Source of the DNA: Chrysogorgia sp. JL179-B06
Lineage: Eukaryota > Cnidaria > Anthozoa > Scleralcyonacea > Chrysogorgiidae
Assembly: GCA_035772405.1 (NCBI GenBank)
Contig: JAYKKM010000450.1
Coordinates: 1,957,501 to 2,021,500, forward strand
Direction of reading: 5' to 3'
Length of the DNA stretch: 64,000 nt
Part shown: piece by piece, positions 17,439 to 39,244 of the stretch
How the letters are laid out: every line of letters starts with the position of its first letter
How positions within the stretch are numbered: the first letter of the stretch is position 1
Program-made: the position numbers and the translations under genes
The notes under the pieces: generated by a model
Told to the model about the DNA's origin: nothing
What the model saw: the letters and a program-made list of their open reading frames with translations, nothing else
The model's database searches: none

Positions 17439-17650
17439 TTAAAAACTATTATTAAATTTCAAAAGTGGTGAGCCAAGCAAGACTTCAAATGTCTCCATAA
17501 GCTTATCTCGTTGTTGCCAGTCAAGACATCGAATGTGGTAGAGTTTGTTGCTGCTAGCCAACACGGTTATTATTAAACTCTTGTCTTCTCTCTTCAAACT
17601 GTTTTTCCACAAGGCGTAAACGAATTTTCCAGGTACGATGTTATGAATAT
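17439..17650 (-). CDS. PKS gene exon 11: C-terminal extension, last half and stop
   Basis: After TTATTTTTAG the exon reads [31 protein letters not shown], then a helix [19 protein letters not shown] and a stop. Strands followed by one C-terminal amphipathic helix again fit a PH-like fold. This is inference from pattern only. Confidence 0.7.
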
Positions 17651-38600: not shown

Positions 38601-39244
38601 TTACTTTCCCAGTTCTTTATTTCCTCTGTCTTTTCATCGCGTGCAGCGTATTCATTCATGAAATACACAATGCGTAAAGCACTTGTTGTGTTCTCTGAAA
38701 TGTTATACGGAGTATGACCACCAAAAATCATGAATTTGTTATCACTTAATCGCCTGCCGTTCGACATCAGATAAGATGAGTTCATCAAAACTGTATAGAT
38801 GCGTTGCGGTATATGTTCGAGTTTCGTCTTGTTATAGTCGAATATCTCCAAGAGATTGCTCGATACACAGTTCTTACTTCGTTCAGAACGGAGACAATGT
38901 TTTTCGTAACCATCAAGTCCAACAATTGCATGGTGAATGTCAATTAAATCTATCAAACAATCGCGCGAGAGGACAGGTTTATCATTTCTTTTCGGTCGGA
39001 TAATAATTTCTTCCATTCTCAGATCTATTTCAAATCCATTTTTAGCTGCCCTTTTTAAGTCCTTGGAAGCTTCGCTGTTTTCTGGCAAATACAGAAATCG
39101 AACGCTATTTTGAACGTCAATATATACAAATCCCATTGTTAATATAACTGCAACGAGCAACGAAGCAAACAGGACTTTAAAAGGTCGCTTGGCTGTATAA
39201 CGGGCAACTTTATCAAAACAATATTCGAGGAATATGGAAAGCAT
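17439..39244 (-). CDS. Patched-like RND transporter fused to a type I polyketide synthase, 11 exons, ~3503 aa
   Basis: Exons: 39244-33481, 33323-30765, 29730-29434, 29041-28662, 27096-26767, 25048-24913, 23440-23256, 22105-21881, 20304-19986, 18966-18862, 17650-17439. All ten junctions have GT/AG borders and matching phases, and the total is 10512 nt, an exact multiple of three. Order: 12-TM RND/sterol-sensing part (1-820), KS (~856-1280), AT (~1395-1700), DH (~1788-2080), pseudo-KR, ER-like (~2320-2560), KR (~2660-2870), ACP (Ser2981), TE (Ser3159, Asp3186, His3339), and a ~150-aa extension. The RND C-terminus is cytosolic in this family, which places the PKS on the cytosolic face. One set of domains implies iterative chain building. 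The ER glycine loop is lost, so double bonds should remain. Substrate, product and transport function are inference. I know of no described animal protein with this layout. Confidence 0.9.
17676..18172. mobile_element. TIR element in PKS intron 10
   Basis: TTAAAGGGAAATGGCAA at the left pairs with TTGCCATTTCCCTTTAA at the right, and ATATATGAAGACCTTTT pairs with AAAAGGTCTTCATATAT. No transposase frame. Confidence 0.8.
18377..18825. mobile_element. TIR element, copy 2 (copy 1 at 3916-4353)
   Basis: Inverted ends AGGGAGCTGTCATTAATTCC and GGAATTAATGACAGCTCCCT, flanked by TTA on both sides, suggesting a TTA target duplication. It lies just downstream, on the minus strand, of PKS exon 10. Confidence 0.8.
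18862..18966 (-). CDS. PKS gene exon 10: C-terminal extension, first half
   Basis: Flanked by TTTTGTAG and GTAAGT. It reads [20 protein letters not shown] then [14 protein letters not shown]. The strand-turn-strand pattern recalls the first strands of PH-like barrels. I do not recognise a family. Confidence 0.7.
19045..19911. mobile_element. Inverted-repeat element in PKS intron 9
   Basis: The left arm (about 19060-19180: AAGTATGTTTAGAATTGTTA, TTTTATGCTTCTG) pairs with the right arm (about 19796-19911: TAACAGTTCTAAACATTAT, CATAAAATACGAGAATGA). Parts of the element recur at 38-265 and 9405-9480. Confidence 0.7.
19986..20304 (-). CDS. PKS gene exon 9: thioesterase C-terminus with catalytic His, start of extension
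   Basis: [19 protein letters not shown] and [18 protein letters not shown] contain the catalytic His (3339) in the place of the GDHFxML motif. The TE normally ends near 3355, but the frame continues for another ~45 residues. The donor CAAAG|GTTGGA is weak but has the correct phase; reading through it would add ~17 residues and a stop. Confidence 0.78.
20305..21880. other. PKS intron 8, nothing recognised
   Basis: AT-rich sequence with short (AT) runs. I see no gene and no repeat shared with the rest of the window. Confidence 0.5.
21881..22105 (-). CDS. PKS gene exon 8: thioesterase lid region
   Basis: 75 codons between AATACAG and GTATGT. The sequence is helical and charged ([19 protein letters not shown]), as in the lid of FAS/PKS thioesterases. 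It has no catalytic residues. Confidence 0.83.
22187..22413. repeat. Dispersed repeat, copy 2 (copy 1 at 12815-13045)
   Basis: Nearly identical to copy 1 over ~225 bp. It lies in PKS intron 7. A short (AT)n run precedes it at 22130-22152. Confidence 0.85.
22414..23255. other. PKS intron 7 remainder, no gene
   Basis: An (AAAT)n microsatellite lies at about 22889-22909. The duplicated TGTTGACAAGTAACA at 23190 and 23219 is next to exon 7. Confidence 0.5.
23256..23440 (-). CDS. PKS gene exon 7: thioesterase nucleophile elbow
   Basis: [17 protein letters not shown] contains the nucleophile (Ser3159) in GxSx[12 protein letters not shown] contains the likely acid (Asp3186). The exon ends ATG|GTAATG in phase 0. 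Confidence 0.9.
23793..24113. mobile_element. Near-perfect palindromic MITE in PKS intron 6
   Basis: TTAAAGTGCCTATAACGTCT at the left is the reverse complement of AGACGTTATAGGCACTTTAA at the right. The arms of ~145 bp match almost base for base, with a ~25-bp centre. A half copy lies at 16362. Confidence 0.9.
24338..24452 (+). mobile_element. LINE 3' tail with (ATT)n microsatellite
   Basis: ATTGTATAATGCTCCTAA followed by an (ATT)n run matches the tail of the LINE fragment at 57637-57696. Only the 3' end of the element is present here. Confidence 0.7.
24606..24731. repeat. Imperfect palindrome
   Basis: GAGTTGGGTGGGTTTTGGGA and GACATTTGCAG are answered by CTGCAAATGTC and ATTTCACCCAACTC. Confidence 0.65.
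24913..25048 (-). CDS. PKS gene exon 6: thioesterase, segment before the nucleophile
   Basis: [17 protein letters not shown] through [10 protein letters not shown] is typical of type I thioesterases just before the nucleophile elbow. The exon ends in phase 1 (CTTG|GTAAGA), and the split codon with exon 7 restores AGFSFGG. Confidence 0.88.
25070..25600. repeat. Dispersed repeat, 'empty' copy (filled copy at 39720-41190)
   Basis: It shares TGCCATTTGCAATGGATT, GACGTTATTAAAG-like, AACCTTCAGATGATAAGAAA and ATGATTTTGCTCGT with 39720-41190 in the same order. The 979-bp insertion found there is absent. Confidence 0.8.
25953..26432. mobile_element. MITE, copy B (copy A at 15861-16344)
   Basis: Same ends (TTAAAGTGCCCCTAACCTCA and TGAGGTTGAGCACTTTAA) and the same interior, in the opposite orientation. 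It lies in PKS intron 5. Confidence 0.85.
26465..26535. repeat. AT-rich short palindromes
   Basis: GTATTATTTAAATAAT and GTCAATATTATTTAAATA with their complements form overlapping hairpins. Confidence 0.6.
26767..27096 (-). CDS. PKS gene exon 5: end of ACP, linker, start of thioesterase
   Basis: [19 protein letters not shown] completes the ACP C-terminal helix. A ~55-residue linker rich in Asn, Asp, Ser and Gln follows (3025-3080). [13 protein letters not shown] opens the alpha/beta hydrolase-type thioesterase. It is phase 0 at both ends. Confidence 0.88.
27158..27360. repeat. (AT)n array with TATACATG variant end, PKS intron 4
   Basis: A pure (AT) run of ~85 bp continues into TATATACATGTATATA repeats to 27335 and another short (AT) run. 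Confidence 0.95.
27630..27786. repeat. (AT)n array of ~155 bp, PKS intron 4
   Basis: Nearly pure AT dinucleotides, broken by ACTG near 27680 and TATTTATA near 27740. Confidence 0.95.
27795..28365 (+). mobile_element. Two tandem copies of a tRNA-derived SINE
   Basis: Units at about 27795-28060 and 28061-28365. Each has CCGTAGCTCAGTGGTCAGAG (A box) and GGGTTCAATTCC (B box), with a near-cloverleaf from GGCTTCC to GGAAGGCC. The loop CTAGCAA gives anticodon AGC, so an Ala-tRNA ancestry is possible. The tail holds TTTTAAAATGTAT-like and TCGAAATTTTCCTTCACC. Peptides such as [10 protein letters not shown] read across it are translation noise. Confidence 0.8.
28372..28450. repeat. Dispersed repeat shared with 16938-17012
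   Basis: CTTACGATAATG and TTTTATTTTAGAAATAACA occur in both places. Confidence 0.65.
28662..29041 (-). CDS. PKS gene exon 4: acyl carrier protein
   Basis: [14 protein letters not shown] contains the Ser (2981) expected to take the phosphopantetheine arm. Upstream, [17 protein letters not shown] is the linker usually found after KR. The exon ends LFE|GTAAAA in phase 0. Confidence 0.93.
29434..29730 (-). CDS. PKS gene exon 3: catalytic half of KR
   Basis: The exon starts with GC, completing a Gly codon. [16 protein letters not shown] carries the catalytic Ser, and [10 protein letters not shown] the Tyr (2809) and Asn (2813). The preceding Lys is at the end of exon 2 (IKTKVQ). The ketoreductase should therefore be active. 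[11 protein letters not shown] is the usual end of the KR domain. Confidence 0.93.
29926..30400 (+). pseudogene. LINE reverse transcriptase C-terminal fragment in PKS intron 2
   Basis: The frame reads [49 protein letters not shown] and PSYL, the thumb/C-terminal pattern of CR1/L2-like elements. [12 protein letters not shown] lies where GRTF…WN is normal. It has no catalytic RT domain. It is antisense to the PKS gene and lies wholly within intron 2. Confidence 0.75.
30765..33323 (-). CDS. PKS gene exon 2: second half of DH, pseudo-KR, degenerate ER, N-terminal half of KR
   Basis: 853 codons after [18 protein letters not shown] and [10 protein letters not shown] (Asp2000, Gln2004) complete a DH active site. 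[14 protein letters not shown] through [13 protein letters not shown] is the structural pseudo-KR found in FAS/HR-PKS modules; no methyltransferase is seen. The ER keeps its length, but the dinucleotide loop, normally Gly-rich, reads [19 protein letters not shown] (about 2454-2472). The KR Rossmann motif [16 protein letters not shown] is intact (about 2665). The exon ends TTCAAG|GTAAAT in phase 1. Confidence 0.93.
33481..39244 (-). CDS. PKS gene exon 1: RND/Patched domain + KS + AT + first half of DH
   Basis: One open exon of 1921 codons. TM segments lie at about 23-43, 253-272, 282-305, 310-333, 360-378, 382-410, 464-480, 664-683, 686-708, 717-739, 758-780 and 787-812; the second to sixth form a sterol-sensing domain. 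[10 protein letters not shown] (Asp326/327) and [11 protein letters not shown] (Asp730) are the conserved intramembrane acids of RND/Patched proteins. The two large loops are extracytosolic. A basic linker (841-856) leads to [12 protein letters not shown], the KS start. KS: DTACSSS (Cys1034), EAHGTGT (His1170), NINHTE (His1208; usually NIGH). [17 protein letters not shown] (Ser1491) and RAFHSK, closest to malonyl-type HAFH. DH: LKDHAF (His1822). The donor is AAAGCAG|GTGATT. The start is the first ATG, but the frame stays open upstream. Confidence 0.93.

Follow-up and report, generated by a model that had tools for sequence, protein, structure and literature searches.

Can a single animal gene encode both a Patched-like transporter of the resistance-nodulation-division (RND) type and a type I polyketide synthase (PKS), and what would such a protein do? 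The question is raised by a locus in a stretch of 64,000 nucleotides from the anthozoan Chrysogorgia sp. JL179-B06 (assembly GCA_035772405.1, contig JAYKKM010000450.1, positions 1,957,501 to 2,021,500 of the forward strand), the whole of which is called the window here. A first-pass annotation had read this locus as one polypeptide in which an RND protein with a sterol-sensing domain runs, with neither stop nor intron, into the ketosynthase (KS), acyltransferase (AT) and dehydratase (DH) of a synthase. Our analysis bore this out: a minus-strand frame (33473..39418) contains 1981 codons without a stop, for which the chance is ~10^-53 on base composition alone. From N- to C-terminus, this frame carries Pfam matches that all exceed their cut-offs, namely, Sterol-sensing (E = 2.5e-31) and Patched (2.6e-26) in the RND half, followed by ketoacyl-synt N (2.5e-72) and C (1.6e-35), Acyl_transf_1 (2.7e-55), and PKS_DH_N (9.1e-15) in the PKS half. 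The border between the halves lies at ~36740-36650, with no splice or stop between them; a hidden intron or stop at this place was considered and dropped, as none is needed. The same domain order was found in at least 116 other proteins.

The full gene model starts at a candidate ATG (39244), the first in-frame methionine consistent with the relatives, and comprises 11 exons encoding 3497 residues (an estimated ~390 kDa) with a single terminal stop; its ten introns are all GT-AG and phase-matched, as first described. The second large exon contributes the C-terminal half of the DH, a region of pseudo-ketoreductase and enoylreductase (ER), and the start of the ketoreductase (KR), and nine small exons contribute the remaining KR, the acyl carrier protein domain (ACP), the thioesterase (TE) and a tail. 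Exons 3-11 were modelled from splice signals and alignment to spliced relatives, not from transcripts. In alignments with relatives, one of them covering the window protein and 42 fused relatives after removal of the bacterial P0072, the catalytic residues of KS, AT, DH, KR, ACP, and TE were all present in one chain, given the motif meanings that we assumed for these enzymes. The claim of a complete synthase held only in part: the ER region is present, but its NADPH motif is unrecognisable in the window and in the four other octocoral rows aligned, so that, as far as sequence goes, the synthase would not be fully reducing. The tail gave a match to the SBF1 PH domain at E = 0.084, and one of seven members gave a Pfam PH match at E = 0.044.

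The first-pass annotation had proposed searching animal proteomes for further proteins with both Patched/sterol-sensing and ketoacyl-synthase domains, and such proteins were found in octocorals and hexacorals. Using RND and KS profiles on the retrieved proteins, we obtained 117 rows with an RND match N-terminal to the KS, that is, the window and at least 116 others, and the RND match spanned at least 700 residues in 110 of the 117. The number 116 is a lower bound, because the searches scored the 7992 and 7985 candidates sharing most words and took the best 120 of 292 and the best 120 of 306 matches. The RND-half search, restricted to candidates between 0.55 and 1.75 times as long as the 1981-residue frame, yielded 27 proteins (P0005-P0031) in which RND and KS-AT share a chain, with 52-80% identity across the RND query, together with the more distant P0033 (36%) and P0046 (22%). 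Annotated models holding the fusion include Stylophora pistillata LOC111325863 (3533 aa, query coverage 100%), three from Oculina patagonica, two from Desmophyllum pertusum, and a "mycocerosic acid synthase-like" protein of Nematostella vectensis (P0058, 3442 aa), and the octocoral models P0035 (Dendronephthya) and P0053 (Paramuricea) include part of the RND half. Type labels were anchored by Dendronephthya and Paramuricea (octocoral) and by Stylophora, Oculina, Desmophyllum, and Nematostella (hexacoral), and the other rows were placed by profile score; the closest relatives that carry a name point to an octocoral as the likely host of the window gene. As a control, an octocoral-only profile recovered 84 of 85 hexacoral-type rows (P0058 was missed), and a hexacoral-only profile recovered all 32 octocoral-type rows. 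No RND match was obtained with the octocoral- and hexacoral-type profiles in any of the 134 other KS-bearing proteins retrieved. The linker between the profile matches had a median of 29 residues across 116 relatives; P0023 and P0030 were excluded from a further comparison, the one used for the linker in table 1. The long exon is common to both branches: none of 71 hexacoral-type exon-length proteins passes the window's exon 1/2 border by more than 15 residues, 9 of the 71 stop within 15 residues of it, and the median falls ~50 residues short; thus, the end of the long exon may differ between the branches. Consecutive gene numbers in Oculina (P0057/P0155, ACROYT_G021035/021036) and in Desmophyllum (P0192/P0196, OS493_013732/013731) suggest tandem copies of the fusion.

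A genome error joining two loci had been named at the outset among the findings that would overturn the fusion; we considered an artefact of assembly or annotation that joins two genes. The oddity of the architecture is all that speaks for it, and we rejected it as extremely improbable in view of the at least 116 other fused proteins and of another fused copy elsewhere in this genome. In addition, the assembly comprises 780,986,399 bases in 522 contigs, and the window lies inside a contig of 5.9 Mb, which makes a joining error unlikely. Taken together, the RND-linker-KS-AT-DH order in one frame, its catalytic residues and its conservation are read directly from sequence, and the fusion is at this level a real, conserved gene family in octocorals and hexacorals.

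Identity between the second fused copy (L009, G000:C3:583500-593400) and the window is 92.1% for the RND half, 92.5% for KS-AT-DH, and 90.2% for the exon-2 part, with dS of 0.07-0.15 over the larger regions. Between the two copies, dN/dS was 0.31 for the RND half (bootstrap 0.22-0.45), 0.20 for KS, 0.22 for AT, and 0.34 for the whole PKS part; the exon-2 part, which contains the degenerate ER, gave 0.57 (0.38-0.98). Both halves are constrained, in agreement with the selection first suspected, and the dead-looking exon-2 part is constrained least.

We addressed the origin of the fusion with a tree of 86 KS rows, of which 32 were octocoral-type, 36 were drawn from the 85 hexacoral-type rows, and 18 were others that we picked, including two KS-first octocoral models. 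All fused rows formed a single clade (support 100), within which the octocoral-type rows without P0033 (98) and the hexacoral-type rows (95) formed subclades. Because the fused KSs make one clade, these sequences point to one old fusion event as likely. P0033, octocoral-type by profile score, was nevertheless basal in the KS tree and retains intact Asp residues in its RND half; it perhaps represents a third cnidarian lineage. RND trees were built with 15 octocoral-type and 27 hexacoral-type rows, and with 12 (L009 included) and 17 rows, respectively. The fused halves and the unfused proteins P0032, L010, and L011 formed a cluster (99/97) that excluded NPC1 and arthropod PTCHD-type proteins, and the three unfused proteins were not separated from the fused rows. 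L010 and L011 are two-exon relatives in the window's own genome with 37.5-38.8% identity to its RND half, and no KS was found in the 9.9-kb stretches examined around them; their family is probably the source of the RND half. Elsewhere in this genome, six Patched-domain matches are clustered on one contig (C123, ~548 kb to 1.17 Mb).

To which class does the RND half belong? Its matches to Sterol-sensing (109.1 bits against a cut-off of 22.3) and Patched (92.7 bits against a cut-off of 23) place it in the Patched/NPC1 branch. The predicted model of the window RND half shows an RND fold with two luminal loops, and six of seven N-glycosylation motifs fall inside these two predicted loops. In a fold search, NPC1/NPC1L1/PTCH1 ranked above MmpL proteins (TMq <=0.84 vs <=0.65), a ranking that by itself rules out no family, and a Dispatched "NNN mutant" appeared among the matches. 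On this ranking and the Patched match the window protein falls outside the MmpL branch, and the fold class of the model is Patched/NPC1-like. The predicted structure of a hexacoral RND half (P0231 and 17 relatives) had a pLDDT of 44.6, which is too low for reading.

The two anthozoan branches differ in the residues on which transport would depend. The intramembrane acids in transmembrane segments 4 and 10 (TM4 and TM10), which we take to be the cation-coupling residues of Patched, Dispatched, and RND pumps, are present in the window, as the first-pass annotation stated. The TM10 Asp was found in 32 of 32 octocoral-type rows, the window and P0033 included, whereas it was absent from all 84 readable hexacoral-type rows; the 85 rows of this type had Asn (79), Ser (2), His (2), or Leu (1) at this position, and one was unaligned. 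Of the two TM4 Asp residues, the first was present in 26 of the 29 octocoral-type rows readable there and in none of the 85 hexacoral-type rows, whereas the second was present in all 29 and in 80 of the 85, respectively. The KS Cys and both His were retained in every readable row. The ER cofactor motif showed the reverse pattern, being lost in five of five octocoral rows and GxGxxA-like in five of five hexacoral rows; transporter residues kept in octocorals and lost in hexacorals, with the ER motif the other way round, make a clean contrast. When pairs were matched by KS identity, after exclusion of P0033, P0058, and every row whose RND span was <=700, the median RND identity was lower in the hexacoral group in all seven bins that held pairs of both groups, for example, 60.6% vs 71.7% in octocorals at 80-85% KS identity, although the pairs are not independent and the 95-100 bin holds a single octocoral pair.

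These results ruled out "synthesis plus export" as the role of the whole family, which the first-pass annotation had suggested for the protein: with the TM10 Asp gone and the RND half diverging fast, the RND half probably persists in hexacorals as a membrane anchor or lipid sensor. Export by the octocoral form is plausible from its conserved residues and does not extend to the whole family. A broader version would deny export to both branches and leave the RND half as only an anchor and a sensor of lipids or sterols by which the synthase is positioned and regulated, as in HMG-CoA reductase, where a sterol-sensing membrane half is fused to a cytosolic lipid-making enzyme. HMG-CoA reductase differs from the window protein in not being a full RND protein and in carrying a different enzyme. 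This explanation is consistent with the retention of the fusion in hexacoral-type rows without the TM10 Asp and with their faster RND divergence; the sterol-sensing domain is also the best-scoring RND Pfam match, and the weakly PH-like tail would be a second membrane contact. A bare anchor, however, would need neither the TM10 Asp and second TM4 Asp found in every readable octocoral-type row nor the constraint measured on the RND half, and the unfused L010 and L011 also retain the TM10 Asp. We thus regard a pure anchor in both branches as possible but rather doubtful.

We proposed instead that the RND-PKS protein builds a lipid at the cytosolic membrane face and that the octocoral form would export or flip the product through its own RND half, a proposal that we consider evenly balanced between right and wrong. 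NPC1 and Patched have a cytosolic C-terminus; because that of the RND half would likewise be cytosolic, the synthase would hang in the cytosol. Dimerisation of the KS would pair two RND units, and the cytosolic synthase, tethered by its own RND half, would make a lipid whose chain the ACP or TE would deliver beside the sterol-sensing cleft. In octocorals, the TM4 and TM10 Asp residues would couple lipid movement to an ion gradient (cation-driven export or flipping), and the product would be unsaturated and polyene-like, given that the synthase has a DH and a KR but has lost the ER motif. In hexacorals, where Asn mostly stands in place of the TM10 Asp, the RND half would rather anchor or sense. 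More speculatively, and with less confidence, we envisage an ancient animal synthase-exporter that, beside its own carrier domain, loads the polyene-like lipid that it makes directly into its own Patched-type transporter, with octocorals still pumping and stony corals and anemones keeping the synthase and the enoyl-reducing step on a dead anchor; if so, Anthozoa would offer a natural before-and-after experiment on the coupling of lipid synthesis and transport.

Several observations weigh against the proposed synthesis and export. The TE suggests free-acid release, for which passage through the RND half is not required, and, since the fusion is kept in hexacorals without the TM10 Asp, export is not what preserves the architecture there. 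The N-terminal half of P0058, from Nematostella, the best-studied hexacoral, is too diverged for Pfam or for the octocoral RND profile; it is the weakest case, counted through a profile that includes P0058 itself, with a BLASTP coverage of 95% of the query and a long branch in the RND tree. The second copy, L009, shifts frame close to residue 802, towards the end of the RND half and ahead of the KS, such that this copy may be decaying or the assembly may be in error at that site. Finally, the models P0054 (Dendronephthya) and P0052 (Paramuricea, marked partial and second to P0005 as the nearest to the window by KS) lie in the octocoral KS clade and begin at or near the KS; their position nested inside this clade indicates truncated models or later losses. 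The last two observations would also suit one locus that gives two proteins, with alternative starts, splicing, or cleavage yielding an RND protein and a synthase separately. Against such a separation, the halves have no stop between them and require no splice, the annotated hexacoral models contain both, and the order and short linker persist in the at least 116 relatives, which separate proteins would not need; we consider it unlikely.

Coupling of RND proteins to synthases is already on record, both between separate proteins and, in an alga, in fused form. The mycobacterial parallel first drawn holds: PpsE binds MmpL7, for which a coupling of synthesis and export was proposed (PMC1238737), and MmpL5 has AcpM docked at its cytoplasmic face (PMC11633376; PMC12346298). 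In both cases, an RND transporter is physically coupled to a PKS or an acyl carrier protein; however, these are separate bacterial proteins of the MmpL branch, whereas the window protein is covalent, animal, and of the Patched/NPC1 branch. The notion of an animal system stands, with an earlier comparable coupling in the alveolate alga Chromera velia, where the "ACR-B coupled" synthases Cvel_8275.t1 and Cvel_22311.t1 (4523 and 4384 residues) are type I PKS-module-like enzymes with an N-terminal AcrB-like/sterol-sensing structure and a predicted association with the endoplasmic reticulum membrane (PMC7464705). They are likened here by description only, which implies neither homology nor convergence, and they were not among the matches listed in our protein searches of the family. 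Because Chromera is coral-associated, transfer versus convergence is a real question.

In Acropora digitifera, three PKS models were given as "other-KS-AT-DH-KR(-ACP)-TE", with the N-terminal part left unnamed (PMC4604110). These coral proteins are extended at the N-terminus and share the enzyme order of the window gene, and they probably belong to its family, in which case the part of coral PKSs labelled only "other" is probably the RND half; a turtle PKS carries "other" too, so that equating the coral part with the RND half is our reading of that label. The same source lists no PKS in Nematostella, which is contradicted by P0058. EcPKS1 and other AFPKs are also animal type I PKSs, and mo-clades 1-3 are described as lacking a TE in a survey in which the words "Patched", "fusion", "coral", "transmembrane", and "RND" do not occur (PMC10764717). 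The window KS-AT scored 471 bits against bacterial CurL, 311 against animal fatty acid synthase (FAS), and 263 against EcPKS1, an order that favours bacterial-type PKSs and, as far as scores can tell, speaks against AFPK membership. No report of an animal Patched-PKS fusion was among the papers listed in searches of the open-access literature (PMC), and the text of the Stylophora cell atlas (PMC8162421) contains none of "polyketide", "PKS", "mycocerosic", "patched", or "fatty acid synthase".

The analysis widens an observation made at a single locus to a gene family that spans the two anthozoan subclasses. The split between octocorals and hexacorals is commonly put at more than 500 million years. 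A coupling of polyketide synthesis and RND export that was proposed from separate bacterial proteins appears here within one animal gene family, and the family provides a handle on the cargo of Patched-like proteins, since what is carried would be whatever the attached enzyme makes. The features of the locus are collected in table 1.

Table 1. Predicted features of the RND-PKS gene, in window positions.
Feature	Position	Strand	Basis and remarks
Whole predicted gene	17439..39244	-	11 exons, 3497 residues; GT-AG introns, matching phases, one terminal stop
RND half, Patched/NPC1-like, residues 1-835	36740..39244	-	Pfam and predicted structure
Sterol-sensing domain PF12349, residues 282-425	37970..38401	-	Pfam
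TM4 Asp-Asp, residues 326-327	38264..38269	-	Alignment
TM10 Asp, residue 730	37055..37057	-	Alignment
Linker from RND half to KS, residues 836-865 (~30 residues)	36650..36739	-	
Ketosynthase PF00109 and PF02801; Cys 1034, His 1170, His 1208	35537..36673	-	Pfam, alignment
Acyltransferase PF00698; Ser 1491, His 1598	34115..35050	-	Pfam, alignment
Dehydratase PF21089 and PF14765, interrupted by intron 1; His 1822, Asp 2000	32869..33880	-	Pfam, alignment
Pseudo-KR and degenerate ER region; no conservation at the cofactor-motif position, 31681-31722	31408..32940	-	Alignment; limits approximate
Ketoreductase PF08659 across intron 2; Ser 2796, Tyr 2809	29504..31101	-	Pfam, alignment; C-terminal limit approximate
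Acyl carrier domain across intron 4; Ser 2975	27049..28886	-	Model, alignment; limits approximate
Thioesterase, exons 5-9; Ser 3153, Asp 3180, His 3333	20143..26841	-	Alignment; limits approximate; relatives P0056 and P0058 match PF00975
C-terminal tail with a weak resemblance to PH domains, residues 3369-3497	17442..20058	-	Suggestive only

Four tRNA matches were observed in the window, at 28150-28222 (+), 45980-46052 (-), 46258-46329 (-), and 14835-14908 (+); three of them are called as tRNA-Ala(AGC), one of these three lying within intron 4 of the gene, and they are possibly tRNA-derived repeats. Near the locus, exons of a DUF229 gene and of an EF-hand gene were found at 5531-7926 (-) and 2494-3120 (+), respectively. 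A retroelement at 49393-55132 (-), with matches to DUF1759, reverse transcriptase, integrase, and DUF5641, is presumably BEL/Pao-like, and a LINE-like endonuclease (Exo_endo_phos_2) of a reverse-transcriptase element lies at 63011-63886 (-).

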